From a virus, in IMG/VR virus record IMGVR_UViG_3300044568_000721, positions 1 to 56,351 of that record: a stretch of 56,351 bases of DNA; one strand, 5' to 3'. The notes below the pieces were generated by a model, which was not told the origin of the DNA, ran no database searches, and saw only the letters and a list, made by a program, of their open reading frames with translations. Position numbers and translations under genes: made by a program. Shown here one piece after another: positions 17,501 through 56,351 of this stretch (the stretch's first letter is position 1; each line of letters opens with the position of its first letter).

Positions 17501-20500
17501 TTAGGTGTTGGTAGAAGTGTTATTTTAGCAACGGGTTCAATGGCATTTACTTGTGACCAAGACGGAAATGCAACAACACATAGTTATCCTAGAAGTGGAA
17601 GTGGTGACCCGTATCTTGGAAAATCAATTGAGATAAAATCAGTTGGATTTACTCAACACACAGTAACTAATGCACCATATAACGCTGAAACTGGCGATGT
17701 TACTATAACAATAGCATCTCATGGATTTAGTAATGGAGATTATATTAAACTTTCCGATAACTCATTAACTTACAATTGTGTATTGGATGATAATGTAGTT
17801 TCAAAATCTTACCCTAGGGCTGGATACGATTATCCAAGCGGAAGATGGTTAAGTATATCTGGTGTAACTCCAAATACATTTAATATCAATATTGGAGCAT
17901 CATCATATACAAACTCACATACATTTGTGACAGCAAGTATTAATGGATTACAAAGACAGAATGGCATCTTTACAATCAATGTAGGGGATGCTGGAAGTGC
18001 TTCTGGTTCAATACATACATTTGTATCAGCATCAGCAAACGCTATAAAACATCTACCTCAATCAATTCACACATTTGTATCAGCATCAGCTGGGGCAATT
18101 AAACATTTACCACAAGCAGCTCATACATTTGTTAGAACTACTAAAAATTCAATAAGTACTATACCTGTATTGGTTCAAAATGGTGATAGTTTAATTAAAG
18201 TAACAAACACAACTCAATACTCATCATCAATATCGGCAAGTGGAGCTGAATTAGATATTATTACATCATCATTTAAGCATGTAGCTGATATTATTGAAAA
18301 TGGTGTTGCATTTGTACCGGATTCATTGGCAAGAAACTATAATTACGGATTTGAATTATCTACACCAACTTTATTACATATAAGTTCTAAAGAGCAGACA
18401 ATTGGTACGGGTTCATATAATTTATCAACTGAAATTACGAATGTAAGTTCTTCTTATGGTAATGTTGTAAATGTTGTTAAAAATGGTTTGAGTGTATTAC
18501 CTACATTAGTAACAAATACATCATCATCTTTAAAAGTAACAAACGTAAATCCTATAAGACAAGCAACATCAGCATCATCTTTTGATACTAATAAGATTTC
18601 AAGTGGATTTGATTTGATATTAAGTGTAATTGAAAATGGAACATCGGTTCTACCAACAATTATATCAAACACATCAGCAAGTATTAAAGTAACTAACACC
18701 CCACAATTAATAAGTGGAAGTGCTGCTGGAAGATTGCAAGGTAAATTAATATCAGCATCTTTATCTTTGGTAATTGATGTGTTATTAAGTAATGGTACAA
18801 GTTCAATTGGACTTAAACAATCAACATTCCCAATAGCAAATTCAAATGCAAAAATAAACTCAGCATATAATCTATTAGTGAGTAACTCTAAATTTATAGT
18901 TGATGAAACTATTGCTTATATGAGTTCTTCTTGGAGTGGATTTGAATATACACAAAGTAAATGTGAAAGAGATTTGACAGGAATCCTTAGTGGTTCTGCA
19001 TTTGACCTTTTATATGGTGGTAACTCTGCATCTTTGTTTAATGGTAAGTTCTATTTTGATTTCCCATCTCAAGCTACTGGTTCACAATTAGACCAAACAA
19101 TTACGGCAATCAAATACGCAAGTGGATTGGCTGAAAAGGTTGTATTGAATACTCCGTTTACACATATATCTGCATCAATTAACCAACCAACATCAGCATC
19201 TTGGAATTCATTAAGAAATAATAAAGGATTTATACAAAGTGAATCAATTGCATATCTATCTTCTTCTTGGAGTAATTTTGATTATAACGAAACTACTTGT
19301 AAGAGAGATATTGGATACGTTATAGATGCAGTAGCAACTGATTTATTATATGGTGGAAATGAGAGAAGTGTTGTAGCAGGTAGATACTATTATGATTATC
19401 CATCTCAAGCTACAAACGCACAATTAGAACCAACATTGACTGGTATAAGATACGCTAAAGGAACAGCTATGAATGTAGTTGTTAATAAGCAGGTATTTAC
19501 AGCATCTTTGGAAGCTCAATACGCATACGATTTAATAAAAGCTAACAAAGTATTCATACAAAGTGAAAGTATTGCATTTGTAAATGTTAAATACCCTAAC
19601 TTAGATTATAGTGAAAGTAAATGTTATAGAGATTTAGGATATATCATTGATGGAGTAGCAACTGATTTACTTTATGGTGGTAATGAAAGAAGTAGAAAGA
19701 ACGCAGATTACTATTATGAGTTCCCATCTCAAGCTAATGGGTCTGGTTCGCAAGTTGTGGAAACGGTAGAGGCAATTAAGTACGCAGCTAGAATAACAAC
19801 GGCATCTATTAGTAGTACATTAATACCAACACCACAAACTATACCTAATACGTTAGCAAATATTAAAGTAACAAACGCTAATCAATATATTTCAGCATCA
19901 TCGGCAACTTCTACTGAAGCAACAATACTATCAGCATCAATTGCTATCGTAACTAACATAGTTGCTAACGGAACTGGTTCAGCAATAGTATCCGCATCAT
20001 TAAGTTTACCAACTTCATCTTATACAACGCCGGTAAGTAATGATAATAGATGGATTGCATACGGAATACTAAAAAATAATATTTCATTTATACAGGATGA
20101 AACTATCGCATATCTATCATCATCTTGGTCAACTGCATCTTATGATGAAAGTAAGTGTAGACGTGATGTGGGATTGATTATAAGTGGAGCAGCTGAAGAT
20201 TTAATATTTAACTCAAATTCAGCATCATTATTTAATGGTATATTCTATTATCAATATCCATCACAGGCGCAAGGAGCACAATTGAATCAAACGCTTGATG
20301 GAATAAACTACGCAAGTAAGTTAGCACAAAAGGTAATTCAAAACGTAACTTATGTAACGGCATCAGCAATTGTATCGGCATCATACGCATTGATTAGAAA
20401 GAATAGAGAATTTATACAAAATGAAACTATTGCGTATCTATCTTCTTCTTGGAGTACCGCATCTTACATTGAATCAACTTGTAAGAGAGATGTTGGTCAT

Positions 20501-22351
20501 ATTATAGATGCAGTTTCTACGGATTTACTATACGGTGGAAACGAAAGAAGTACAAACGCTGGGGTGTTCTATTACTTATATCCATCACAAGCGCAAGGTG
20601 CACAATTACAACCAACATTGACAGGTGTTAATTACGCAGGACAACTTTCTAAAAATGTTGCGGCATCATTAACATTTGTGACAGCATCACAATTAGTATC
20701 AGCATCGGTTAATTTATTAAGAAAAAATAGAGAGTTTATACAAAATGAAACCTTAGCTTACTTAACTGCTAGTTGGAGTACATTTGAGTATGATAAAGAT
20801 AAGTGTAAGAGAGATACTGGTTATATATTAGATGGTGTTACTACCGATTTATTATATGGTGGTAATGAAAGAGGTGTATTGAATGGTAAATTCTATTACG
20901 AATATCCATCGTTGGCAATCGTTGAAGGTGATGGTGATGGTGTTGGACAATTAGGACAAACAATTGATGGTATAAACTACGCAGGTAGAATAGCACAAAA
21001 GATTGCACAAAATATACAATTCGTAACTGCATCATTACAAGCATCGGCATCATTTGATTTATTAAGAAAGAATAAAGCATTTGTGGCAGAGGAAACTATT
21101 GCTTATGTAAGTTCTTCTTGGAGTGGTGTATATTATAACGAAGCAACTTGTAAGAGAGATGTAGGATACCTAATAGATGCAGCAGCAACGGATGTATTAT
21201 ATGGTGGACAAGAAAGAAGTGTGATAGCAGGACAGTATTATTACTTATATCCTTCTAACGCAATCAATAAAGGTGTACCATCTACTCAAAATCAATTAGA
21301 CCCAACCCTTACTGGTATCAGATATGCTGGAAAGACAGCTAAAAAAGTAATAACTAATCCAACTTATTTAGTACCATCTGCATCTCTATTAACAACAGCA
21401 AAATTGTTGACAGATAATAAAGAATTGATACAAAAAGAAACTATACTATTCTTATCTTCATCTTGGAGTAATTTGAAATACAATGAAGTAAGTTGTAGTA
21501 GAGATTTAGGATTTATCATAGATGCAATCAGAACTGACTTAGTTTATGGTGGTAATGAAAGAAGTATTGAAGCTGGTTCATATTATTATAAATTCCCATC
21601 AGTAGCAATATTAGATAGTTATGGTGATAATAATGGACAAAAGAAGCAAACGATAGATGGCATAAACTTCGCAAGAGGAATATCTGAAAAAATTGTAGCA
21701 AATACTCTATTAACTTACTTAGCACCATCTACTAAGAGAAGACAAGCAGCTGAAAGATTGAAATCTGGTAAAGATGAATTGAAACAAAGAGCAATTGGAT
21801 ATACAAATGGAGCTTTTCCATATTTAGTATATAATGAGGCAAGTTGTTCACGTGATACAGGATTTATTGTAGATGCAGCTGTAACGGATTTATTGTATGG
21901 TGGAAATGAAAGAGGAATCAGAGCAGCATCTTCATATTATGATGGTCAGTACGGAAGTGCAATAGCTGTGACTAGAGACCAATTATTAGAAACATTGGAA
22001 ACAAATCGTTATCTAAGAACTAGAGCAGAGTTTATAGCAGCTGGGGCACCATTAGAATCATTTGGTTCTTTGATTGTAGCAACTGGTATTGACTACTCTT
22101 ATAATGGTAGTGGTGTGACATTCAAAGCACTTCCTCCAAATCAGGGTGGTAGTGGTGTGGCTGACCCAATATACGAAATTACCGAATTGGGTGGAGGTAG
22201 AATCTTCTTCACATCTGGTAATCAGGATGGTGACTTTAGAATTGGTACGGGATTAAGTATTAATCAGGCAACTGGTACTCTTGTGGGTAGAACATTTAGT
22301 AAATCTCTATTCTCATTAGTAACTCCGTTCTCATTGGCACTACAAATATAA
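8531..22351 (+). CDS. Giant repeat virion protein (4,606 residues)
   Basis: One uninterrupted frame of 13.8 kb. Domains in order: fibre-like N-terminus with ITGSVFLTGSL strands (1-90); a right-handed beta-helix/pectate-lyase-like domain (about 95-380) starting with DGDDSNDGRSIQYPLRTIKRA; a degenerate cupredoxin-like domain (about 615-722); then 22 copies of a helical repeat with core C-x-RD-x-G-x-I-x-DAV-x-x-D-x-x-YGGNERS...YYY-x-YPS, grouped in five arrays separated by Ser/Thr-rich NGTGSxPT linkers; four FTCDMDGN repeats (about 2,795-3,130); and a short beta C-terminus. Giant proteins with such repeats occur in T4-like cyanophages, where their function is unknown. It probably forms a very long neck or tail appendage. 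The repeat cysteines are conserved once per unit. Start is ATG four bases after the preceding gene. Confidence 0.85.
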   Translation: MARLIPRKQIEEQQNISGSFRVGEDINIGNNTIISGSIFVSQSFFFGSATSSRNEITGSVFLTGSLVIEGDLRTGAPNTILSVTSSNTVLAVDTQRYAGILAKDFGANLPTLYVSSTDGDDSNDGRSIQYPLRTIKRAAALSTPGYDGRYGFDTGSVFNGYVIKVQAGTYLEDNPVILPKNTTIWGAGLRITKINAKTPTEDLFYVNSGCYIAEVTMGGLRLYPDQINPEKGFAIAFQPGAFITTSPYVQNCSQISNQENSFTELYEDIPPGGGGLYVNGDVIDPDSPLASMVLDAYTQISPNGVGCLVNGRGFIQLVSFFNNFSYYAIRVNNGGQATLNNSNISFGLYGMYASGSRFISGSGGNIQARDSVRGTWSCVVDVLNKGLENGLPTITKLNTAEGIRLTSPALYTQSRVSATTTLSTTAADEIFSDYTLISEIVDKGVTNFPTLLAKSSIKGYGFDSPYNILGAEQITSSISATQHDLNSTSASYAAILSILANGTGSFTFKSNTSASRQIGTDTIQPIANESPFTSSVSSSFGTILNIITKGVSVKPTYIANTSASIKGGSVEQTMLGVTSSLATINSVSASFSIVYNILANGTGSNILPIPANHQKSFVITNNNSSSFDFEGIGSNPTLTLFRGETYKFNVDAIETFGGIEYPFWIRTEQLEGITEKYDYNIGMVNNGDSRGTITFTVPYNAPNRLYYVSQNRSSMGGKIEIVNSSTTPFELIKNTLTYPATIQSGSIAKTGIDVVTAYEILVSNIEFIKDEVIQFVSSSWSGFSYPEETCKRDVGYIVNGVAKDLLFGGNEESIRNGLFYYQYPSEATTTQLGPTLTAMKHAAGVSLNLIRGKVYTEPTTEVDDVWNTIRDNKTFVQNEVITYLSSSWSNFYYNEAKCRRDTGYILDAVATDAKYGGNERSIIAGEYYYQYPSLAIVRGDGDGVGQLGQTSDGIRYASGLVDNLLKQKTFTAPDATTLSAYNNLLNNKELIQNETIQFINVAFPNLKYNQATCKRDVGYIVDNVATDLLYGGIERGVTAGRYYYDYPSLATTTQRTSTIAGVRYAKIIGDTIVQNQILDTPRIVYNDEKNFRASSLTNVSSSFSGSVTQQTSIGNTFSIIEGIVARGLSSIKSLLAQNTGLIWNKYNPLNVTNDSQITSSYTTPNEVNTIDRSFDIVNTIIGGGLIAEPVFTSSQANAIAVTGTTQTTASLAVSGSVTSSISASIAYVATIITNGTGSLGTLVSNLNSNVKVTNTPQYITGSGYYGTNTQSTQLSSSIKVITDILEGGLSFVPTLTSNVSASIKVTNTSQYISASYSASASNVNFISSSISIVTKIIEGGEFSAPAFQTYTNRVTSSNSVAAYEILKNNIPFIQNETIAYLSSSWAGFEYDETKCRRDLGFILSGSAEDLIWNANSASVFNGLFYWEFPSQAQGAQLQQTLDGINYASRLAQKVIQNVEFTTASANTLNAASLLVNNKVFIQDETIAYLSSSWSEQAYIESTCKRDVGHVIDAIRTDLVYGGNERSRNAGIFYYLYPSQATGSQLLPTLDGINYAGRMIQKIVTGSVFVAAEGNKVNASNLILRNKNLIANEVVAYVSSSWSEAEYNQAKCLRDTKYILDAVRTDLVYGGNERTRFAGEYYYRYPSAAIVGGVPSATQQLDPTITGVYYANQLVQNIIKNIVLSAPSTSALNAASLLKTNRAFLQQNTVDYANETYPNLEYIESKCYRDTGFIVDAVITDLVYGGNERSITAGRFYYLYPSQATGVQSEETIDSLNFTKGLAKLVAIGGKSIEDGFDIVANVIESGSNSAPNVVLNTAAGIKATTAQQTTSSISVSTSDKFIVSSSFGNILNILSNGTGSIPTTIVKNTNRGVNVLGGTQITSSITPAISEKTKVTTGFDIVLDIVENGTGSIPTIVTNVNSLIKRTTTNSYITTASISSTYLTASNNSFNIVLDIVENGTGSLPTLVKNTDSLVKITNTNQFTSSVIISSSLARNISGSFDKIINILENGTGSLPTIVLNTNNNIKVTNATQYLGGTPATQTEANAISASISIVTNIIANGIGSLPTVTLYTSSISSSNVVAAYTILKNNLDFIVSESIAYLSSSWSTASYDESKCRRDLRFILSGSAEDLIFNANSASVFNGKFYYQFPSQAQGAQLNQTLDGIKYASRLAQKLVLNTPFVTQSAQVKDAYTLLVNNKDFIKDEVIPYISSSWSTHQYVESTCKRDIVHIIDAVSTDLLYGGNERTINAGVFYYLYPSEATGSQIQETVTGIEYARDIAFKILKGNTFTKVSQNKLQAKELIYNNRAFIQNEVISYISASWSTASYNETTCKRDVGHILDAVTTDIVYGGNERSINAGKFYYEYPSQATTSQLGPTLSGIKYAKDLTDSVLKNSTFVSASNSNVTAYELIFNNKAFIQNETIAYLSSSWSAFSYNQTTCKRDIGYILDAVATDILYGGNERVAKAGEYYYLYPSLATVGNDGDTGGQLNQTLDGIKYAKGITEKIVANLLLQSPTTSELTGFNLLIDNKKFIQSESIAYLSSSWSGGDGFYYNETTCKRDIGHIIDAVRTDLVYGGNERSSKAGEYYYLYPSAAILTGSVSPTVATQKGPTLDGINYVAGTAKNIIENKVLISPTGFTTSSVNLLRQNKKFIQNETVQYIDAFFPNLVYLRETCRRDVGYILDAVITDTFYGGNQRSVIAGQYYYLYPSLATKSTQVRETVAGVDYAKALAKAIAQNIKLNTPTLTTNTDGNIKVTNTTQYTSSLGATTIEVNQISSSFGLVTGIITDGVKSFTPTTATYNPANGDFVITIPSHTLTKYNSIYIKPESFVFTCDMDGNRTEHKLPSIGQYAYSNKLQIQSVTTNTITVNVGASGPNVEFTPTNATYDPATGDFVMTVGTHSLSIGEGILISTGSIAFTCDMDNNQSVKSYPRFGIDPYAGRSMMITNTTPTTLTVSVGASAANKYFTPSAANYNALTGDMSVTVGQHGLGVGRSVILATGSMAFTCDQDGNATTHSYPRSGSGDPYLGKSIEIKSVGFTQHTVTNAPYNAETGDVTITIASHGFSNGDYIKLSDNSLTYNCVLDDNVVSKSYPRAGYDYPSGRWLSISGVTPNTFNINIGASSYTNSHTFVTASINGLQRQNGIFTINVGDAGSASGSIHTFVSASANAIKHLPQSIHTFVSASAGAIKHLPQAAHTFVRTTKNSISTIPVLVQNGDSLIKVTNTTQYSSSISASGAELDIITSSFKHVADIIENGVAFVPDSLARNYNYGFELSTPTLLHISSKEQTIGTGSYNLSTEITNVSSSYGNVVNVVKNGLSVLPTLVTNTSSSLKVTNVNPIRQATSASSFDTNKISSGFDLILSVIENGTSVLPTIISNTSASIKVTNTPQLISGSAAGRLQGKLISASLSLVIDVLLSNGTSSIGLKQSTFPIANSNAKINSAYNLLVSNSKFIVDETIAYMSSSWSGFEYTQSKCERDLTGILSGSAFDLLYGGNSASLFNGKFYFDFPSQATGSQLDQTITAIKYASGLAEKVVLNTPFTHISASINQPTSASWNSLRNNKGFIQSESIAYLSSSWSNFDYNETTCKRDIGYVIDAVATDLLYGGNERSVVAGRYYYDYPSQATNAQLEPTLTGIRYAKGTAMNVVVNKQVFTASLEAQYAYDLIKANKVFIQSESIAFVNVKYPNLDYSESKCYRDLGYIIDGVATDLLYGGNERSRKNADYYYEFPSQANGSGSQVVETVEAIKYAARITTASISSTLIPTPQTIPNTLANIKVTNANQYISASSATSTEATILSASIAIVTNIVANGTGSAIVSASLSLPTSSYTTPVSNDNRWIAYGILKNNISFIQDETIAYLSSSWSTASYDESKCRRDVGLIISGAAEDLIFNSNSASLFNGIFYYQYPSQAQGAQLNQTLDGINYASKLAQKVIQNVTYVTASAIVSASYALIRKNREFIQNETIAYLSSSWSTASYIESTCKRDVGHIIDAVSTDLLYGGNERSTNAGVFYYLYPSQAQGAQLQPTLTGVNYAGQLSKNVAASLTFVTASQLVSASVNLLRKNREFIQNETLAYLTASWSTFEYDKDKCKRDTGYILDGVTTDLLYGGNERGVLNGKFYYEYPSLAIVEGDGDGVGQLGQTIDGINYAGRIAQKIAQNIQFVTASLQASASFDLLRKNKAFVAEETIAYVSSSWSGVYYNEATCKRDVGYLIDAAATDVLYGGQERSVIAGQYYYLYPSNAINKGVPSTQNQLDPTLTGIRYAGKTAKKVITNPTYLVPSASLLTTAKLLTDNKELIQKETILFLSSSWSNLKYNEVSCSRDLGFIIDAIRTDLVYGGNERSIEAGSYYYKFPSVAILDSYGDNNGQKKQTIDGINFARGISEKIVANTLLTYLAPSTKRRQAAERLKSGKDELKQRAIGYTNGAFPYLVYNEASCSRDTGFIVDAAVTDLLYGGNERGIRAASSYYDGQYGSAIAVTRDQLLETLETNRYLRTRAEFIAAGAPLESFGSLIVATGIDYSYNGSGVTFKALPPNQGGSGVADPIYEITELGGGRIFFTSGNQDGDFRIGTGLSINQATGTLVGRTFSKSLFSLVTPFSLALQI
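10800..11760. repeat. YGGNERS repeat array A (3 units)
   Basis: Three 85-110-residue units. The first has a variant core (GGNEESIRNG) and the last replaces the usual SSSWS segment by NVAFPNLKY, the same terminal variant seen at the end of the other arrays. Confidence 0.8.
12600..13900. repeat. YGGNERS repeat array B (4 units)
   Basis: Four units. The first carries SGSAEDLIWNANSASVFNG in place of DAV..D..YGGNERS..AG, and the last carries NETYPNLEY in place of SSSWS. Confidence 0.8.
14770..16750. repeat. YGGNERS repeat array C (6 units)
   Basis: Six units. The opening unit has SGSAEDLIFNANSASVFNG and the closing unit DAFFPNLVY. Confidence 0.8.
16912..17925. repeat. FTCDMDGN tandem repeats (4 units)
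   Basis: Four units of about 80-87 residues, each with a Y-(D/N)-x-x-(T/N)-GD opening, an (F/Y)-x-C-(D/V)-x-D core and YPR-x-G before a GKSIEI-like strand and VGAS. The fourth unit is degenerate (YNCVLDDN). Confidence 0.8.
18855..19800. repeat. YGGNERS repeat array D (3 units)
   Basis: Three units. The opening unit has SGSAFDLLYGGNSASLFNG, and the closing unit NVKYPNLDY. Confidence 0.8.
20050..21960. repeat. YGGNERS repeat array E (6 units)
   Basis: Six units. The opening unit has SGAAEDLIFNSNSASLFNG, and the closing unit NGAFPYLVY. It ends 390 bases before the stop codon. Confidence 0.8.
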
Positions 22352-23360: not shown

Positions 23361-26300
23361 ATGGCAATAAGTAATCTATTAACGGGCAGGGTAAGGGTTG
23401 TAAGCCCGAAAAATGTAACATCTGACAGGTATCAATTCTTGGATTTATCTCAAGCAGAGCCGAATTTGGGTGTTCCTAGCTTTTCTGCATCATTATTAAC
23501 GAATCCTGCTATTGTAGTTTCGGATAGTGAAGGTAATAGAGGATTTGCAAGAACAATTAGTTTAGACCAAATTTCAGGTTCTTTTTCTGGTTCATTTCAA
23601 GGGGATGGTAGTAACTTAACAAATCTACCTGCAGCAATTAGAATAGCTAGTGGTTCAGCAACTGCATCTTTTATAGGAGGCAATTTAGTTGTAAATACAA
23701 ATACAACAGTTCAAGGAAATTTAATTGTAAGAGATTCTATATTTGCAGAACAATTAGTAGTATCTTATATTTCATCATCTGTAATATATTCATCGGGTTC
23801 AAATAAGTTTGGAGATGATATATTAGATATACAACAAATAACTGGTTCACTTAATATTAGTGGTAGTGTTATAATAACTGGTTCTCTTAAAGCCCAAGAA
23901 ATAACAGGTTCTGTATCTGGTGCATTTACTGGAGATGGTGCTGGATTGTTTAACATTCCTCGTTCTGCATTTAGTGGTGATTCATTTAGAATAGCTAGTG
24001 GTAGTGTAACTGCTTCCGTAGACCCTACATATGGATTTAAAGTTGAATCGGCATTAAGTGGTTCTGAATTTACTGGTAGTGTGGATATTAGTGGTAGTAT
24101 ATCAGCATCGTTATTTATTGGAGATGGTAGAGGATTATTTAATTTACCAGCTTTAACAGCAACATTAATAGCAAGTGGTTCTGCAACTGCATCTATCGCA
24201 CCAAACACTGGATTGGTTGTAAATACATTCTCAACATTCCAATTTCCAGTATCCGCATCAATGTTTAGTGGTAGTGGTAAGGGATTATTTGATATTCCAC
24301 AATCAGCTTTAGCAGAGGATGCAACTTTAATAGCAAGTGGTAGTGTAACGGCATCGGTATCACCTAATTTTGGATTTAGAGTAGAATCTGCTACGGTTGG
24401 TTCTCAGATAACTGGTAGCATGTTTGTTACTGGTAATATTCAATTGGGTGTTGGTGGTGTTTATTCTGGTAGTGGTGCAAGATTATTCGATATACCACGT
24501 TCAGCATTAACTCCGGATGCATTGGTAGCAACATTAATAGCAAGTGGTAGTGTAACGGCATCAACATCTCCGGATTTTGGATTTAAAGTAATATCTGCAC
24601 AAAGTGGTTCTAGTTTTACTGGTAGTTTATTTGTAAGTGGTGGAATTGAAATTAATTCTGGTTCATCTTACTCTGGTAGTGGTGCTAGATTATTTGATAT
24701 TCCAGTAAGAGCATTAAGAGATTTAGACTTATCTAAGATTTCAAGCGGTTCGGCAACGGCATCAATTTCTCCTGATAAAGGATTGGTGGTAAATACATTC
24801 TCTACATTTAGTGGAAGTATGCTTATTTCAGCATCTAAGCAATATTTTCCATCCGAATCTATACAAACTGTATTTAACGTAACTAATAATGATAATTTAA
24901 ATTATAATTTTACTGGGGCAGCTATTGGTTCGAATCCAACATTAACATTAGTAAGAGGTATAACTTATATTTTTAATTTAAATGTAAGCGGACATCCTTT
25001 TCAAATAAAAACAATTAATACAACCGGAACAAACGATTTATATAATACGGGTGTAACGAATAATGGAGGTCAAGTTGGTACTTTAATATTTGCAGTACCA
25101 TCAAATGCACCTGATAGACTTTATTATATTTGTCAATTCCATGCATCTATGGCTGGTACTATTAATATAGTAGATGGATTATTGCAAAAAGGTGATGGTG
25201 TTACCATAACAGGAAGTTTGGATGTTAGTGATATTATTAGAGCTAGAGAATTTACTGGCTCATTTAGTGGTTCGTTTTTCCAAGGTGATGGTGGGGGATT
25301 ATTTAATATTCCAAGAGCAGCATTTACTGGAGATTCTCCTAGAATAGCAAGTGGTTCTGTAACGGCTTCTGTAAGTCCTGATGATGGGTTTTTAGTAAAA
25401 TCAGTTGAAAGTGGTTCAACTTTTAGTGGGTCTGTTGATATTAGTGGTTCTTTAATTATATTTGGAAATTTAATTGGACAAGAAATTAGTGGTTCAAGCT
25501 TTAGTGGTTCATTTCAAGGAGATGGTAGTAGATTAACAAATATAAACGTACCACCTCAAGTTGCAACAAAGATAGTATCTGGTTCGGTAACAGCTTCTGT
25601 AAGTCCTGATTCTGGATTCGTAGTAGTATCTTCTGATAAAGGTTCTCAATTTACTGGTAGTATATTTTTAAGTGGTAGTATATTTGGAAATTCAAGTATA
25701 GAAATATCCAGTGGTTCGTTTAGCGGTAGTGGTGCTAGATTATTTGATATACCAAGAGCAGCTTTAACGCCAGATGCTTTATTATCTACTGAAATAAAAA
25801 GTGGTAGTGTAACGGCATCGGTTAGTCCTGAATTTGGATTTAAAGTATTATCTGCGGAAAGTGGTTCTCAATTTACTGGTAGTTTATTTGTTAGTGGTAA
25901 TATATCATTAGCAAGTGGTTCATCTTATTCTGGTAGTGGTAAAAATTTATTTGATATCCCACTATCAGCATTGGCAAACTTAGACCTTTCTAAAATTTTC
26001 TCTGGTTCGGCAACTGCATCAATTTCTCCTGATAGAGGATTTGAGGTATTCGCTTCAGTATCAAACTTTTCTGGTTCAGTATCAGCATCCGTATTTAGTG
26101 GTAGTGGTAAAGGATTAACAGATATTCCATTTTCAGCGTTATCAGAAGAATTAAAAAGAATTGCTAGTGGAAGTGTAACTGCATCGGTTTCTCCTGATGA
26201 TGGATTTAGAGTAATATCAGCTGAAAGTGGTTCTCAATTTACAGGTTCTTTATTTGTAACTGGTGGATACATTAGAGTTGAGACTGGCTCATTTTTCTCT

Positions 26301-29300
26301 GGTTCTGGTGCTGGATTAAAAGATATTCCTAGAAACGCATTGACCGAAGATGCTTTAATATCTACCGAAATTAAAAGTGGTAGTGTAACTGCATCTGTTT
26401 CTCCTGATTTTGGATTTAGAGTAATATCAGCTGAAAGTGGTTCGCAATTTACTGGTAGTTTATTTGTAACTGGTGGATATATTAGAGTTGAGACTGGTTC
26501 TTTCTTTAGTGGTAGTGGTGCTGGATTATCTGATATTCCTGAATCTGCATTATCATTTAAAATTAATAGAATTGCAAGTGGTTCGGTAACTGCATCAATT
26601 TCGCCTGATTATGGGCTTAGAGTAAATACATTTTCTACAATTAGTGGAAGTTTTATAGTATCATCTTCTGCAAGAGAATTAGCATATTCTGATATAGATA
26701 CTGTATTTAACGTAACCAATGCTGGAAGTAGTGCATATAATATAAGTAATAGATTAGTAAGTGGTTCAAACCCAACTTTAACTTTAGTTAGAAATGTAAA
26801 TTATACATTTAATGTAAATGCTAGTGGGCATCCATTTTGGATTAAAGATACAAATAGTACAGGTACTGCAAACTCATATGATACTTGGGTAACTAATAAT
26901 GGTGATGATGTTGGTGTTATAACATTTTTAGTTTCAGGAAGTGCACCGAATACACTTTATTATAATTGTCAATTACATGGTTCAATGGCCGGCACTATTA
27001 ATGTAGTAGATGCATTATATGTTCCAGCAGAAATAAAATTAATTGGAGATACAAAAGTAATTGGTGTAGTAACTGCTTCTGTATTTAGTGGTAGTGGTAA
27101 AGGATTATTTGATATTCCTTTCTCAAATATTACTGGTGATGCAGTACGAATAGCAACTGGTAGTATAACAGCATCGGTATCACCACAAAAAGGATTTTTT
27201 GTTGAATCAGTTGAAAGTGGTTCATCTTTTAGTGGAAGTATTTTAATTGATTCATCTTCTTTTATTTATTCAGAAGGTACTTATTTACGAAATATTCCTC
27301 GTTCTGCATTAACTGAAGATGCATTAGCTTCATCTGAAATTAAATCAGGTTCAGTAACAGCATCGGTATCTCCTGTATTTGGATTTATAGTAAAAACACC
27401 ATTTACTTCATCAGTAAGTGAAAGTTTCTTTGTTACACAAATAGCATCTCAATTTACGGGTTCAATATCCGTATCTGGTAGTTTATTTGTAAATGATACA
27501 AGCGGAGGACTATTTATAGATTCATCATCATTTATATTTGCTGATGGAACATATCTTAGAAATATTCCTCGTTCTGCATTAACTGAAGATGCACTATTAT
27601 CATCGTTTATTGTATCTGGTTCAGTAACGGCATCTGTAAGTCCTGATTTTGGATTTAAAGTAATAGCAACTAATATATTTAGTGGTTCTGAGTTTGGTTC
27701 TCAATTTACTGGAAGTGTTGATGTAAGTGGAAGTGTTAGAGCATTTAGATTTATAGGAGATGGTTCTCAAATTACAAATGTACAAGCGGCAGCATCACCT
27801 TTAATAGCAAGTGGTTCTGCAACGGCTTCGGTAGCTAGTGGTGATACTTTTGTAGTTACAACCGGTGCAACTGGTTCTGGCTTAAATTATCAAATTGGTA
27901 CTCGTATAACTGGTAGTGTTGATGTTAGTGGTAGTTTAAAAGCTCAATTTATATTAGGTGATGGTAGATTTATAACAAACGTACAAGCGGCAGCTGCACC
28001 ATTCATTGGTAGTGGTTCTGCAACTGCATCGGTTCAAAGTGGTGATTCCTTTGTAGTAACAACTGGAGCAACTGGTTCGGCCATTGGTTCTAGATTTACG
28101 GGTTCAATTGACGTAAGTGGTAGTGTTAGAGCATTTTCATTCATTGGAGATGGTTCTCAATTAACGAATGTACAAGCATCTGCAGCTCCATTAATAGCAA
28201 GTGGTTCTGCAACGGCATCCGTTCAAAGTGGAATACAATTTGTAGTAACAACGAATGGTGTATTCTCAAGTGTAGGTTCTAATTCTGGTTCTTATTATGG
28301 TTCTATATTCACTGGTTCGGTAAGTATTAGTGGTTCGATATCATCATCTCGTTTTGAAGGTGATGGTGGTGGATTGTTTAATATCCCAGCATCGGCATTA
28401 GAAGATTTACAATTAAGTATAATTCAATCTGGTTCTGGTAGAGCAATTGTAGACCCAGAAAAATTAGATGTAAACGTACCTATAACAGCTGCATTATTTA
28501 TTGGTGATGGTGGTGGATTATTTAACATTCCGGCAAACGCATTACAAGACCTTAAATTAGATAGAGTTATATCTGGTTCGGTTGAAGGTGTGATATCTCC
28601 AAATAAAGGATTTGAAGTAAATACATCTGTAAGAATATTCTCTGGTTCACTAACTGTGAGTGGTTCGGTATTTGTTAGTGGTGGAAATGTAATAGCAGCA
28701 TCTGGTTCTTCATTTATTGGAGATGGTAGTGGATTAAGAAATATCAATATCGCTAATTTAGCATTTGAAACTTCTCTATTACAATCTGGTTCTGTAACTG
28801 CACAAATCTCTCCAAATTTAGGATTAGTTGTAAATACATCAGCATCTATACAAGGTGATTTGAATGTATTGAATAAAATATTAGTAAATAATATTACGGC
28901 AAGTAATGTTATTAAATCTCAATTATTTACCGGTTCATTCTTAGGTACATATAATTTCCAAGGAGTTGGGGCTACGGCTAGTGCAGAATATGATATTTTA
29001 AGATTCAATCCAACACAAGGATATTTCATACCTCAGCCGGAAACATCATTAACTGAAACAGTAGCATTTAATAATGTAAGTAATTTAACTATTGTACACA
29101 ATTTGGGTATAAAATATCCAATGGTTCAGGTGTACGCTACTGGTTCTGAAGACCAAATTTTACCTGGAACAATAAAATCAATTGATGATGATACTATACA
29201 AATTGTATTTAGTGGATTAACATCTGGACATGTTGTAATTGGTAGTGGTGGTTCTTTAATAAATGGAACTATTAATGGAGATAGGGTATTTGGTGAAGTT

Positions 29301-32300
29301 TATTCGGCATCTTATGCTAGGAGAGCAGCTTTAGCAGACGCTGTAACTGGATTTGATTCGGCATCGTTGGTAGCATTATCAGCATCGTTATCAAATGCAA
29401 ACGCTTATGTAAGAAATGACCAAACAGCTTCAATGGCTGTTTTAAATTCTAAATTTGCAGAAACTGCATCATATGTAGCTGATTTAAGTAATCTTAATTT
29501 AACTGATTATGTAAGAAATAGTAGAACATCTTCAATGACTGTTGGTACTGCTTCTTTAGCAATTACCGCATCATATGCATTATTTGCACAAAATGCATCA
29601 AACGTTGATACGGCTAACTTTATACAAAATTTCCAAACCGCATCAATGAGAGTTGGTACGGCTTCATTGGCAATATTTGCATTTACCGCATCATACGCTT
29701 TAAATGCAGCTGGAAGTGATACTTCATCGTTCTTACAAATTAATACTGACCAAACTTTTAGAGCATCTTTAGTAGTTAGTGCTAGTTTGGGTGTGAGTGG
29801 TAGTGTATTTTTTGGAAATTTACCATCTGCATCATATGAGCAAGTAGTAATATGGGATACAGTAACAAAAAAATTAGGATATAGAAATATAGCAGCAGCT
29901 GTGGGTTCATCTGGTACATCAGGAACTTCTGGTATAAGTGGAACGGATGGTACATCAGGAACTTCTGGTACAAGTGGTACAAGCGGTACTTCTGGGACTT
30001 CTGGAACATCTGGAGTAGATGGTACATCAGGAACTTCTGGTACATCAGGAACTTCTGGTACATCAGGAACTTCTGGAACTTCTGGATTAGATGGTACATC
30101 AGGAACTTCTGGTACATCAGGAACATCAGGAACTTCTGGTACATCAGGAACATCAGGAACTTCTGGAACTTCTGGAACTTCTGGAACATCGGGAACTTCT
30201 GGAACATCTGGAACATCGGGAACTTCTGGAACATCTGGGACATCGGGAACTTCTGGAACATCAGGCACAAGCGGAACATCTGGAACATCAGGCACAAGCG
30301 GAACATCAGGAACTTCTGGAACTTCTGGAACATCAGGAACATCAGGAACAAGCGGTACAAATGGAACTGCAGGAAGTGGTGGTTCATCAGGAACTTCTGG
30401 AACATCAGGAACTTCTGGAACATCAGGAACTTCTGGAACATCGGGAACAAGCGGTACAAATGGTTCTGCTGGTACAGCAGGTACTTCTGGTACATCGGGT
30501 ACTTCAGGAACTTCTGGTTCTAATGGTAGTAGTGGTACTTCGGGAACTTCTGGTACATCGGGAACTTCTGGTACATCGGGAACTTCTGGTAGTGGTGGTG
30601 ATAGTGGTAGTAGTGGAACATCTGGTAGTGGTGGTTCTTCTGGTACATCTGGAACAAGTGGTACATCTGGTTCAACTGGTTCAGATGGTACATCAGGAAC
30701 TTCTGGTACATCCGGCTCAGCTGGACAAGATGGTACATCGGGAACTTCTGGTTCATCAGGAACTTCTGGTTCAACTGGTTCGGCTGGAACTTCAGGTACA
30801 TCGGGAACTTCTGGAACTTCTGGAACATCAGGAACTTCTGGTTCGGATGGTACATCAGGTTCATCTGGTACAAGCGGTACATCGGGAACTTCTGGAACAA
30901 GCGGTACATCTGGTACAAGTGGTAGTGACGGTTCATCTGGTACAAGTGGTACTAGTGGTAGTAGTGGTACTTCGGGAACTTCGGGAACTTCTGGTACATC
31001 GGGAACATCGGGCACAAGTGGTAGTGATGGTTCATCTGGTACAAGCGGTACATCAGGAACTTCTGGTACAAGCGGCGTTGGTACTGATGGTACATCTGGT
31101 ACATCAGGAACTTCTGGAGAAAGTGGTTCATCTGGAACTTCAGGCACATCTGGTACAAGTGGCACAAATGGTAGTGCTGGTTCAAGTGGTACAAGTGGTG
31201 TTGGTACTGATGGTACATCAGGAACTTCAGGAACTTCTGGAGAAAGTGGTTCATCAGGAACTTCTGGAGCAAGTGGTACATCGGGAACTTCAGGTACAAA
31301 TGGTTCAGCTGGTACATCCGGTACAAATGGTTCAGATGGAACTTCTGGAACATCAGGAACTTCTGGTAGTGATGGAACAAGCGGTACAAGCGGCACAAGT
31401 GGTAGTGATGGAACTTCTGGAACATCTGGAAGTGGTGGTACAAGTGGTACATCAGGAACATCTGGATTAGATGGAACTTTCTTTGGTAGTAGTGGTACTT
31501 CTGGTACAAGCGGTACAAGTGGCACATCAGGAACTTCAGGAACTTCTGGAGAAAATGGTTCATCAGGAACTTCTGGTTTAAACGGAACATTCTTTGGTAG
31601 TAGTGGTACAAGCGGCGTAAGTGGTTCTGATGGTACATCGGGAACATCAGGAACTTCTGGAGAAAATGGCTCATCGGGAACTTCTGGAGAAAATGGTTCT
31701 TCTGGAACTTCTGGATTAAATGGTACATTCTTTGGTAGTAGCGGTACTTCTGGAACATCGGGAGAAAGTGGAAGTAGTGGAACGAGTGGAATAAATGGTA
31801 CGGATGGTACTAGCGGAACTTCAGGAACTTCTGGATTAAACGGAACTTTCTTTGGTTCTTCAGGAACTTCTGGTATAAATGGTACTGATGGTACGTCTGG
31901 TACAAGTGGTACAAGTGGTACATCGGGAATAAATGGTACTGATGGTACTTCAGGAACTTCTGGATTGAATGGTACAATGTTTGGAAGTAGTGGTACTTCT
32001 GGAATAAGTGGTACTTCAGGTACTTCTGGAGAAAGTGGTTCTTCTGGAACTTCTGGAACTTCAGGAACTTCTGGTTTAAATGGTACAATGTTTGGAAGTA
32101 GTGGAACATCTGGTTTTGATGGTACTTCTGGTACAAGCGGAGCTGGTACATCTGGAACTTCTGGAGAAAGTGGTTCATCGGGAACTTCTGGTTTAAATGG
32201 TACAATGTTTGGAAGTAGTGGTACTTCTGGAGAAAGTGGTTCATCGGGAACTTCTGGTTTAAATGGCACGGATGGTTCATCAGGAACTTCTGGTACATCG

Positions 32301-33470
32301 GGAACATCAGGAACTTCTGGATTAAATGGAACTTTCTTTGGAAGTAGTGGTACAAGTGGTACTTCAGGAGTAAGTGGAAGTAGTGGTACTTCTGGAACTT
32401 CTGGAACTTCTGGTTCGGCTGGAACTTCTGGTTTAAATGGTACAATGTTTGGAAGTAGTGGTACTTCTGGAACATCGGGTACTTCCGGAGTAAGTGGTAC
32501 ATCGGGCACATCTGGTATTTCTGGGACAGCAGGAACTTCTGGATTGAATGGTACTATGTTTGGTAGTAGTGGTACAAGCGGCACATCAGGAACTTCTGGA
32601 GTATCTGGTTCTGCTGGTACATCGGGAACTTCAGGTACATCAGGAACTTCTGGATTAAATGGTACAATGTTCGGTTCATCAGGAACTTCTGGAATAAGTG
32701 GTACGGCTGGAACATCGGGAACGTCTGGATTAGGAACTTCTGGAACTTCTGGTACATCAGGAACTTCTGGTGTTAATGGTACATTCTTTGGTAGCAGTGG
32801 TACGAGTGGTATTAATGGTGAAACTGGCGCTTCCGGTTCTTCTGGTACATCAGGTACAAACGCTCCGGGATTTTCATCTGGTACTTCTGGTAGTGGTGGT
32901 GCAAATGGTACTTCTGGATTAAATGGTACATTCTTTGGTTCATCTGGGACTAGTGGTGCAAATGGTACATCGGGTACTAATTCACCGGCATTTTCATCTG
33001 GAACTTCTGGTACAAATGGATTTTCTTTGGTTGGAACAACCAATGATGGATTATTAACTTACACAAATGCACCCGTTGGTGCAACTGTTGAAAGTAATAT
33101 AACATTTGATGGTACGAATTTAGCAGTAGTAGGTAACGTAATATCAACAACATATAGAGAAACATTTAATGATTTAGGAACTGGTGGAAGTGCAACATTG
33201 GATTTATCAACAGCAAACAACTTTAGAAGACAATTTAACGGAACTGCAACAATAACAATAACAAACGCACCTAATTCTCCAATTGGATTTGGATTTACAT
33301 TAGTAACCGTAAATGCCGGAGCATATGCAATTACTTGGCCTGCTAGTGTTGATTGGGTTGGTGGAAGTGCGCCAATACTTACTTCTTCTGGAACTGATGT
33401 TTTAGTATTCTACACTTATAATGGTGGAACATCTTACTATGGATTTGTAACAGGTAAAAACTTAAGTTAA
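23361..33470 (+). CDS. Giant collagen-like tail fibre with cupredoxin-like domains
   Basis: A 3,369-residue fibre. Residues 1-2,180 are dominated by about 60-100-residue modules with the fibre motifs (F/Y)SGSGARLFDIP or GDGSNLTNLP followed by IASGSVTASVSPDFGFRV and GSQFTGSLFVSG. Two cupredoxin-like domains are inserted at about 502-605 and 1,113-1,217. A domain at about 1,880-1,970 (VAFNNVSNLTIVHNLG) precedes a short Ala/Ser-rich YVRNDQTASM region. Residues about 2,182-3,219 are a collagen-like Gly-Thr-Ser stretch with 13 interruptions of the type GTFFG or GTMFG. The C-terminal 150 residues form a beta domain (YRETFNDLGTGGSATLDL...). It is likely a homotrimer forming a long flexible fibre. 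It has its own tandem promoter-like elements and a weak GGAAAG sequence before the ATG. Confidence 0.8.
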   Translation: MAISNLLTGRVRVVSPKNVTSDRYQFLDLSQAEPNLGVPSFSASLLTNPAIVVSDSEGNRGFARTISLDQISGSFSGSFQGDGSNLTNLPAAIRIASGSATASFIGGNLVVNTNTTVQGNLIVRDSIFAEQLVVSYISSSVIYSSGSNKFGDDILDIQQITGSLNISGSVIITGSLKAQEITGSVSGAFTGDGAGLFNIPRSAFSGDSFRIASGSVTASVDPTYGFKVESALSGSEFTGSVDISGSISASLFIGDGRGLFNLPALTATLIASGSATASIAPNTGLVVNTFSTFQFPVSASMFSGSGKGLFDIPQSALAEDATLIASGSVTASVSPNFGFRVESATVGSQITGSMFVTGNIQLGVGGVYSGSGARLFDIPRSALTPDALVATLIASGSVTASTSPDFGFKVISAQSGSSFTGSLFVSGGIEINSGSSYSGSGARLFDIPVRALRDLDLSKISSGSATASISPDKGLVVNTFSTFSGSMLISASKQYFPSESIQTVFNVTNNDNLNYNFTGAAIGSNPTLTLVRGITYIFNLNVSGHPFQIKTINTTGTNDLYNTGVTNNGGQVGTLIFAVPSNAPDRLYYICQFHASMAGTINIVDGLLQKGDGVTITGSLDVSDIIRAREFTGSFSGSFFQGDGGGLFNIPRAAFTGDSPRIASGSVTASVSPDDGFLVKSVESGSTFSGSVDISGSLIIFGNLIGQEISGSSFSGSFQGDGSRLTNINVPPQVATKIVSGSVTASVSPDSGFVVVSSDKGSQFTGSIFLSGSIFGNSSIEISSGSFSGSGARLFDIPRAALTPDALLSTEIKSGSVTASVSPEFGFKVLSAESGSQFTGSLFVSGNISLASGSSYSGSGKNLFDIPLSALANLDLSKIFSGSATASISPDRGFEVFASVSNFSGSVSASVFSGSGKGLTDIPFSALSEELKRIASGSVTASVSPDDGFRVISAESGSQFTGSLFVTGGYIRVETGSFFSGSGAGLKDIPRNALTEDALISTEIKSGSVTASVSPDFGFRVISAESGSQFTGSLFVTGGYIRVETGSFFSGSGAGLSDIPESALSFKINRIASGSVTASISPDYGLRVNTFSTISGSFIVSSSARELAYSDIDTVFNVTNAGSSAYNISNRLVSGSNPTLTLVRNVNYTFNVNASGHPFWIKDTNSTGTANSYDTWVTNNGDDVGVITFLVSGSAPNTLYYNCQLHGSMAGTINVVDALYVPAEIKLIGDTKVIGVVTASVFSGSGKGLFDIPFSNITGDAVRIATGSITASVSPQKGFFVESVESGSSFSGSILIDSSSFIYSEGTYLRNIPRSALTEDALASSEIKSGSVTASVSPVFGFIVKTPFTSSVSESFFVTQIASQFTGSISVSGSLFVNDTSGGLFIDSSSFIFADGTYLRNIPRSALTEDALLSSFIVSGSVTASVSPDFGFKVIATNIFSGSEFGSQFTGSVDVSGSVRAFRFIGDGSQITNVQAAASPLIASGSATASVASGDTFVVTTGATGSGLNYQIGTRITGSVDVSGSLKAQFILGDGRFITNVQAAAAPFIGSGSATASVQSGDSFVVTTGATGSAIGSRFTGSIDVSGSVRAFSFIGDGSQLTNVQASAAPLIASGSATASVQSGIQFVVTTNGVFSSVGSNSGSYYGSIFTGSVSISGSISSSRFEGDGGGLFNIPASALEDLQLSIIQSGSGRAIVDPEKLDVNVPITAALFIGDGGGLFNIPANALQDLKLDRVISGSVEGVISPNKGFEVNTSVRIFSGSLTVSGSVFVSGGNVIAASGSSFIGDGSGLRNINIANLAFETSLLQSGSVTAQISPNLGLVVNTSASIQGDLNVLNKILVNNITASNVIKSQLFTGSFLGTYNFQGVGATASAEYDILRFNPTQGYFIPQPETSLTETVAFNNVSNLTIVHNLGIKYPMVQVYATGSEDQILPGTIKSIDDDTIQIVFSGLTSGHVVIGSGGSLINGTINGDRVFGEVYSASYARRAALADAVTGFDSASLVALSASLSNANAYVRNDQTASMAVLNSKFAETASYVADLSNLNLTDYVRNSRTSSMTVGTASLAITASYALFAQNASNVDTANFIQNFQTASMRVGTASLAIFAFTASYALNAAGSDTSSFLQINTDQTFRASLVVSASLGVSGSVFFGNLPSASYEQVVIWDTVTKKLGYRNIAAAVGSSGTSGTSGISGTDGTSGTSGTSGTSGTSGTSGTSGVDGTSGTSGTSGTSGTSGTSGTSGLDGTSGTSGTSGTSGTSGTSGTSGTSGTSGTSGTSGTSGTSGTSGTSGTSGTSGTSGTSGTSGTSGTSGTSGTSGTSGTSGTSGTSGTSGTNGTAGSGGSSGTSGTSGTSGTSGTSGTSGTSGTNGSAGTAGTSGTSGTSGTSGSNGSSGTSGTSGTSGTSGTSGTSGSGGDSGSSGTSGSGGSSGTSGTSGTSGSTGSDGTSGTSGTSGSAGQDGTSGTSGSSGTSGSTGSAGTSGTSGTSGTSGTSGTSGSDGTSGSSGTSGTSGTSGTSGTSGTSGSDGSSGTSGTSGSSGTSGTSGTSGTSGTSGTSGSDGSSGTSGTSGTSGTSGVGTDGTSGTSGTSGESGSSGTSGTSGTSGTNGSAGSSGTSGVGTDGTSGTSGTSGESGSSGTSGASGTSGTSGTNGSAGTSGTNGSDGTSGTSGTSGSDGTSGTSGTSGSDGTSGTSGSGGTSGTSGTSGLDGTFFGSSGTSGTSGTSGTSGTSGTSGENGSSGTSGLNGTFFGSSGTSGVSGSDGTSGTSGTSGENGSSGTSGENGSSGTSGLNGTFFGSSGTSGTSGESGSSGTSGINGTDGTSGTSGTSGLNGTFFGSSGTSGINGTDGTSGTSGTSGTSGINGTDGTSGTSGLNGTMFGSSGTSGISGTSGTSGESGSSGTSGTSGTSGLNGTMFGSSGTSGFDGTSGTSGAGTSGTSGESGSSGTSGLNGTMFGSSGTSGESGSSGTSGLNGTDGSSGTSGTSGTSGTSGLNGTFFGSSGTSGTSGVSGSSGTSGTSGTSGSAGTSGLNGTMFGSSGTSGTSGTSGVSGTSGTSGISGTAGTSGLNGTMFGSSGTSGTSGTSGVSGSAGTSGTSGTSGTSGLNGTMFGSSGTSGISGTAGTSGTSGLGTSGTSGTSGTSGVNGTFFGSSGTSGINGETGASGSSGTSGTNAPGFSSGTSGSGGANGTSGLNGTFFGSSGTSGANGTSGTNSPAFSSGTSGTNGFSLVGTTNDGLLTYTNAPVGATVESNITFDGTNLAVVGNVISTTYRETFNDLGTGGSATLDLSTANNFRRQFNGTATITITNAPNSPIGFGFTLVTVNAGAYAITWPASVDWVGGSAPILTSSGTDVLVFYTYNGGTSYYGFVTGKNLS
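29904..33021. repeat. Collagen-like Gly-Thr-Ser coding repeat, block 2 (3.1 kb)
   Basis: More than 1,000 residues of Gly-X-Y with X mostly Thr and Y mostly Ser, encoded by near-identical units such as GGAACTTCTGGTACATCA. The left third is almost pure GTS. The right half carries regularly placed (L/V)(N/D)GT(F/M)FGSSGTSG segments. The lack of stops on the opposite strand is a by-product of this codon use. Confidence 0.9.
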
Positions 33471-55927: not shown

Positions 55928-55946
55928 TTTGGTAATCTAAATTATT
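55923..55946 (+). terminator. Weak AT-rich hairpin after the baseplate unit
   Basis: AATAATTTGG (55923-55932) pairs with CTAAATTATT (55937-55946) with one G-U and a four-base loop. It has no proper T tract and low GC content, so termination would be inefficient, or it may only be a chance palindrome. Confidence 0.35.
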
Positions 55947-55953
55947 ATTCGTA

Positions 55954-55961
55954 TATTTACA
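55954..55961 (+). promoter_or_regulatory. TATTTACA, one-mismatch late-promoter-like element (tmRNA)
   Basis: Seven of eight bases match TATTTATA. The element ends eight bases before the first base of mature tmRNA (55970), about where a -10-type element would sit if transcription began at or near the mature 5' end. This is the best positional evidence for the orientation of the motif. Confidence 0.5.
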
Positions 55962-55969
55962 TATTATAT

Positions 55970-56351
55970 GGGGATGCCATGGACTTGATTGCAATGAGAA
56001 TGGTAGTACCACACGTAGACAGAAGTGCTAGATGTCTTTAAATCTGTACAAAACAATAACTGACGAAATGTCAACTATGACCTTCGAAGACCTTATGGCT
56101 TTCGTAGGTGCTGATTACGCTGTAGCAGCCTAGTCACAACAATCGGGTCGGTGCACATACAACCTAGGAACAGAAGTGTTTACAAAGGCTTTATTCGTTG
56201 AGCCCGAATCAACGAATTGGTGGAAAAGCTGTACTAACCATACGGCCCCAATTATTTTGGAAAGTGAATAAGATTAAACTTTACCTAAACGTGTGATATG
56301 CTGGTATTATGATTACTTTGTAAGACAGGGGTTCGATTCCCCTCATCTCCA
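55970..56351 (+). ncRNA. ssrA: tmRNA (transfer-messenger RNA)
   Basis: A 382-base one-piece tmRNA rescuing stalled ribosomes. The 5' GGGGATG (55970-55976) pairs with CATCTCC (56344-56350) as a seven-base-pair acceptor stem with the G3-U wobble that identifies alanine tRNAs, and A56351 is the discriminator. The T arm is AGGGG/CCCCT around TTCGATT (56327-56343). A D-loop-like TGGACTTGA lies at 55980-55988. The connecting helix pairs CACACGT (56010-56016) with ACGTGTG (56289-56295). A PK1-like stem is AGACA/TGTCT (56017-56021 with 56033-56037), and a perfect 8-base-pair stem is at 56194-56201/56209-56216. Its loop CCCGA could pair with TCGGG at 56143-56147. The tag frame is 56062-56133. The window ends at the discriminator, so whether CCA is encoded cannot be seen. 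Confidence 0.93.
56062..56133 (+). other. tmRNA proteolysis tag reading frame (23 codons plus TAG)
   Basis: The resume codon is most likely GAC at 56062, directly after AATAACT, the same upstream context that precedes the GGC resume codon in Bacteroidota tmRNAs (from memory). The tag starts DEMSTM, contains FEDLMAFV, and ends GADYAVAA before TAG at 56131-56133. The last eight residues resemble an ordinary tag ending (YALAA type, here YAVAA), so it looks like a standard tag with about 15 extra codons in front. Usual bacterial tags are about 8-15 coded residues. Confidence 0.75.

Follow-up and report, generated by a model that had tools for sequence, protein, structure and literature searches.

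A conserved two-part tag in the tmRNAs of a large group of uncultured phages

The C-terminus of the ssrA tag is a ClpXP-type degron. In Escherichia coli, A86, located four bases upstream, determines which codon is used to resume translation, with the assistance of U85 (PMC2481249). A different pairing of tag and protease is found in Mesoplasma florum, whose tag is specific for the cognate Lon (PMC9097571, PMC8138137). Phages also carry tmRNA genes. In mycobacteriophage Wildcat, tmRNA is the most highly expressed lytic gene (PMC7474061), and mycobacteriophage DS6A harbours a gene composed only of the tRNA-like domain (TLD), thought to titrate SmpB (PMC4131195). Marine myophage Melnitz has a two-piece tmRNA with a riboswitch (PMC9004378).

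The window analysed here, i.e. the whole stretch of 56,351 bases, is a complete, A+T-rich IMG/VR virus record (GC content of 34%), with genes for tail sheath, tail tube, baseplate hub and tail fibre. An earlier note, made from the sequence alone, described a T4-like phage and its tail genes. The tail is contractile and its proteins include types known from T4 (gp18/gp19), but judging from these proteins the phage is related to Flavobacterium phage immuto and is not a close relative of T4. Among isolated phages, the sheath protein matches those of Microcystis phage Mel-JY01, LR756508 and Flavobacterium phage immuto. The product of the 938-aa gene that neighbours the tmRNA gene has no match in the isolated-phage collection. 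The window also contains two very large ORFs, at 8531-22351 (4606 aa) and 23361-33470 (3369 aa), the latter overlapped by an opposite-strand open frame of 1178 aa at 29507-33043.

The phage-encoded tmRNA that the note had placed at 55970-56351 was identified there by both ARAGORN and the Rfam RF00023 covariance model (CM), the latter scoring 70.9 bits, well above its gathering score (47), and matching over its full length (model positions 1-374). ARAGORN assigns to it a tag of 23 aa followed by a stop, DEMSTMTFEDLMAFVGADYAVAA. The features of the locus are as follows.

55928-55959, + strand: predicted Bacteroidota-type promoter, with -33 TTTG at 55928-55931, a 20-nt spacer and -7 TATATTTA at 55952-55959; the mature 5' end follows after 10 nt
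55970-56351, + strand: one-piece tmRNA gene (ssrA; ARAGORN, RF00023), complete save the 3' CCA, which lies beyond the record end
55970-55976, + strand: acceptor stem 5' arm GGGGATG (sequence, CM alignment)
56017-56049, + strand: pseudoknot 1 (PK1), with S1 pairing 56017-56021 with 56033-56037 and S2 pairing 56025-56032 with 56043-56049
56057-56061, + strand: frame-setting pentamer UAACU (U85 and A86 equivalents; A at 56058), from conservation at -4/-5 and the rule of PMC2481249
56062-56109, + strand: N-terminal tag module, codons 1-16, DEMSTMTFEDLMAFVG, from pN/pS in frame versus off frame
56110-56133, + strand: C-terminal host-like degron ADYAVAA, codons 17-23, and stop TAG (56131-56133), from sequence, ARAGORN and likeness to GENNYALAA/GEYNYALAA
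56327-56351, + strand: T arm AGGGG-TTCGATT-CCCCT (56327-56343), acceptor 3' arm CATCTCC and discriminator A (sequence, CM alignment)

The acceptor stem with its G3-U pair, the T arm and the tag with its stop, all pointed out in the note, are thus present in the sequence or the CM alignment, the alanine identity pair being formed by G3 (55972) and the U at 56348. An A-rich leader is also present. Across the 10 pairs of PK1 in 19 distinct relatives, 95% of the cells are paired and 14 have changed on both sides, a level of double change that none of 500 shuffles reached. In the middle part of the tmRNA (PK2-PK4/helix 5 region), the RF00023 alignment is weak, with low posterior values. A DNA search for the nearest host tmRNA gave matches confined to the T arm and the 3' end, so that a donor is not traceable. 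The GAC resume codon at 56062 has the required A at -4. All 66 distinct tag DNAs of relatives likewise have A at -4, preceded by a pyrimidine (T or C) at -5, which agrees with the 23-codon tag of the earlier note.

We collected related loci using the neighbouring 938-aa gene or the last 24 bases of the tmRNA, and these already encode homologous long tags. Degenerate searches then brought the total to ~185 IMG/VR loci (100 distinct 5' regions) whose tags start with a module similar to DEMSTMTF(D/E)DLMxFVG and continue with A(D/N/E)..YA(L/V/Y)AA. The module is present in all nine complete close relatives fetched by the neighbouring tail gene, and in 37 of 37 fetched by the 3' end at E<1e-20, the tag being used in neither case. 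Members of 134-237 kb include L022, L066, L142, L203 and L259, and in one case the tmRNA lies inside a 237-kb contig, beside 21 tRNAs. The tmRNAs differ widely outside the tag, and the tag peptide is near constant. T7, F14 and G16 are invariant in the 49 distinct modules, in which position 10 admits no residue other than D or S. Conversely, the tag ends vary (YALAA, YAVAA, YAYAA, LAVAA, LAIA, EATFA) while the module stays. The conserved two-part tag is thus common to a large uncultured phage group, and this tmRNA variant is more than a single-genome curiosity. By tblastn, neither module nor tag was found in the isolated-phage collection, the PDB holds no sequence match to the tag, and a search for similar peptides elsewhere in the fetched loci returned nothing but further tmRNA tags. 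In two loci (L260 and L267), the tags are truncated (DELSTMTFDDLMAFVGRLIK and DEMSTMTFDDLMAFVGADYE), representing sequencing errors or decayed degrons. ARAGORN gave the tags VNKTELYLSAP in L016, ADEYAYAA in L036, VNKTELYLSAL in L064 and ANEYAVAA in L092, despite a conserved in-frame long tag in each. Annotators should therefore be aware that such shortened or misread tags hide the family.

As pairwise counts among related sequences are not independent events, the following pN/pS values should be taken as effect sizes rather than probabilities. For codons 1-16 of 12 distinct modules, whose loci had been retrieved via the neighbouring gene or the 3' end and thus independently of tag patterns, pN/pS was 0.30 in the tag frame versus 1.13 and 1.60 off frame. 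For 49 modules it was 0.21 in frame versus 1.27 and 1.75 off frame; that set was partly fetched with back-translated tag patterns, which favours silent differences, and the tag-independent repeat upheld the result. Codons 9-16 of the pattern-1 loci, which that pattern leaves unconstrained, also gave 0.30. The module appears at least as constrained as the degron (0.21, in the partly tag-fetched set, versus 0.38). The suppression of non-synonymous change in the tag frame argues that the extension is translated and that its sequence matters; judging from these ratios, purifying selection acts on the peptide that the first 16 codons encode. The third bases of codons 1, 2, 4 and 7 (GAC, GAA, TCA and ACC; 56062-56085) are kept despite the phage being A+T-rich, hinting at some additional, RNA-level constraint near the resume codon.

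We then looked for the module in cells. A scan of 84,980 cellular species for DEMSTMT with F, Y, I or N as the next residue gave two matches, neither with a tmRNA, and a search for the middle of the module in 396 Bacteroidota genomes gave one match, without tmRNA. In 29 Bacteroidota tmRNAs (28 of the 30 best-scoring ones and one more), the tags are 9-10 residues long, for example GENNYALAA, GEYNYALAA and DNNYSYRLAA. The phage tag resembles these host tags only over its final 8-9 residues, and its end is hydrophobic and of the AA type (...YAVAA, then TAG). Given the short host tags and the absence of the module in the cells searched, the phage tag looks like a host-type ending extended at its front by about 15 residues. 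This fits the view of the earlier note that the end is a normal-looking degron and the start is extra. The tag is usually taken as merely the degron of the host; here, a large phage group adds to it a conserved peptide that is absent from the bacterial tmRNAs searched.

The host is likely to belong to the Bacteroidota, based on the promoter, on missing Shine-Dalgarno sites (23 of the 27 window genes have no such site) and on the similarity of the sheath to that of immuto. The predicted promoter follows the Bacteroidota housekeeping consensus, TTTG / TAnnTTTG (PMC7366714, PMC2483708). Of the 47 distinct regions upstream of tmRNAs of this family, 37 contain the motif TTTG-N18-22-TAnnTTT[GA], versus 1.1% of Markov-resampled controls, a count that overstates independence since these regions are mutually related. 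The motif mostly ends 10-14 bases before the tmRNA gene. With a predicted promoter of its own, expression of the tmRNA need not be late and could start early; the promoter thus argues against purely late expression.

Two alternatives concern the nature of the locus itself. Translation might in truth resume at 56107 and the tag be the 8-residue GADYAVAA, an outcome that the earlier note had itself considered. The host tag is about equally long, and ARAGORN gives 8 residues in relatives L092 and L036. Nevertheless, the base at -4 of GGT 56107 is C and not A, contrary to the rule (PMC2481249), PK1 and the frame pentamer directly precede GAC, and the 15 codons upstream of 56107 evolve in frame as coding sequence. 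The 8-residue tag is rejected on the first and last of these grounds, and we regard it as most improbable. The tmRNA might instead belong to a bacterial chromosome beside a prophage, the record having been cut at the gene. ssrA is frequently used for integration (PMC3029335), and the discriminator base (56351) is precisely the last base of the record, as it is in the IMG/VR records L005, L038 and L065; perhaps the software that made these records cut them at a tRNA-like gene, so that the end would be artificial. However, in contigs L003 and L006, whose tmRNAs are identical to that of the window, the encoded CCA and further phage-type genes come next, so that a host gene at a prophage edge is rejected. 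Synteny of the tmRNA with the 938-aa gene in each of the nine complete relatives retrieved by means of this gene, the occurrence of the family within the 237-kb contig and the lack of the module in the tmRNA of any scanned cellular genome also make a chromosomal origin scarcely credible.

The reading that we consider reasonably probable is that the phage tmRNA is functional and appends a host-like degron together with a conserved, probably protein-binding module. Its activity, the targeting to ClpXP, the helix and the binding to a partner are all inferred. Host RNA polymerase would transcribe the tmRNA from its own Bacteroidota-type promoter, and host AlaRS would charge it with alanine via the G3-U pair. 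Host SmpB would then bring it into stalled ribosomes during infection. Phage SmpB was not found in 17 records, so host SmpB and host AlaRS would serve the phage tmRNA. The abundance of the Wildcat tmRNA makes ribosome rescue in infected cells plausible. Translation would resume at GAC 56062 and append the two-part tag, whose last 7-8 residues (GADYAVAA) would mimic the host tag and deliver the product to ClpXP-type proteolysis. Among the same 17 records, ClpP-type proteases occur in four (three tag carriers and LR756508) and may be head-maturation proteases; no phage ClpP is consistently present, so that these proteases do not point to the partner. The module DEMSTMTFEDLMAFVG would be a separate selected peptide, its pattern T-F-(D/E)-(D/S)-L-M-x-F-(V/I/M)-G possibly forming a short capped helix with T7 as N-cap and G16 as C-cap. 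The hydrophobic moment of its 9-residue core versus shuffles (p about 0.02-0.24) is at best suggestive of amphipathicity. Through the module, a protein (protease, adaptor or phage factor) would make a second contact with the tagged product; a binding partner would best account for the module being conserved no less than the degron. That the module is conserved and selected across a large phage group makes a specific role much more likely.

How far this role extends can be read in several ways. More tentatively, and somewhat short of even confidence, we propose that the module is a second targeting signal invented by the phage, a short helix binding one specific partner (a host adaptor or protease, or a phage protein), which would create the phage's own branch of trans-translation, and that other phage lineages built unrelated modules at the same place, namely EA[ED]YIFNNADEFL..., GN..(D/N/A)KM..(L/V)GL(V/T)R... 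and ATDTDATVTDAEIEAFF.... If the module steers products to a chosen protease or adaptor, it would represent a natural, portable, phage-made degradation signal. Alternatively, the extension might be only a longer flexible handle that helps an unfoldase engage tagged products, its sequence being kept mainly by RNA needs or common descent. Several phage tmRNA lineages do have long tags of unrelated sequence, such that length itself may be favoured, and the conserved third bases near the resume codon would fit as well. Nevertheless, suppression of non-synonymous change in the tag frame only, across widely differing tmRNAs, and the three invariant residues of the module make this explanation unlikely. 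The tag could also act as a decoy or redirector that occupies the host protease or adaptor, diverts products from it or marks them for another fate, thereby protecting phage proteins. A host-like end with a non-host extension suits competition, variants ending in EATFA or LAIA are unlike the host tags seen, and the Wildcat tmRNA is extremely abundant (PMC7474061). However, the canonical YA(L/V/Y)AA end of most variants predicts ordinary degradation, and we deem this role quite unlikely. The earlier note had suggested that the tag could compete with host trans-translation during late infection or send products to another protease or adaptor; either may occur.

Long tags are also found in other phage tmRNAs. 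ARAGORN predicts a 25-aa tag, ATDTDATVTDAEIEAFFAEEAAALV, in ET08, a mycobacteriophage of the Bxz1 species, in line with the comparison with Bxz1 that the note had drawn. Other long tags include EAEYIFNNADEFLGGVEEECYALAA in L051 and L088, and GNVLDKMETLGLVRESEVTVA and GNTFAKMATLGLTREASVVAA in L299 and L388. In contrast, the tag of the Bacillus phage G tmRNA has 13 aa; thus, long phage tags are common but not universal. Phage tmRNAs of the EA[ED]YIFNNADEFL... group were observed in L051, L086, L088, L095 and L031, and those of the GN...KM..(L/V)GL(V/T)R... group in L299, L388 and L045. Beside the phage G tmRNA, ARAGORN detects a tRNA with anticodon TTA, which reads the stop TAA (L447:1373-1446). 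The 484-kb huge phage LR756508.1 has a 112-base RF00023 match of 58 bits at 414804-414915 (L122:1501-1612) that looks like the tRNA-like domain of a tmRNA, almost without mRNA part, and resembles the TLD-only gene of DS6A (PMC4131195). It also has a second, full tmRNA at 92434-92880 (L120:1501-1944), for which the A86 rule gives a tag of ~33 residues, NADYESAGFTAEDFAQMDGESLYHGSERKPAAV, and ARAGORN a different one of 8 aa.

Compared with known systems, the window tmRNA shares with Bacteroidota-type bacterial tmRNA (RF00023) the TLD, PK1, the frame rule, the alanine acceptor and a GENNYALAA-like ending, but the phage tag has 23-24 codons instead of 9-10, and the 16-residue module is absent from the sampled tmRNAs. 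Flavobacterium phage immuto (NC_055915) is among the closest isolated phages, with 48.9% sheath identity over 59% of the protein; unlike in the window phage, no tmRNA was detected in it. In the huge phages (PMC7162821) and in Melnitz (PMC9004378), tmRNA is likewise a phage-borne genome feature, and the accessible text of these two reports does not mention a conserved tag module such as that of the window family. Bxz1 and ET08 are similar in having a phage tmRNA with a long tag and adjoining tRNA genes, as in L066 of our set; they differ in tag sequence and host phylum, and the TxxEIxAF similarity is too short to count. Lastly, the Mycoplasma/Mesoplasma florum pair of tmRNA and Lon is cellular and its whole tag differs, whereas the phage keeps a host-like end and places its module in front.
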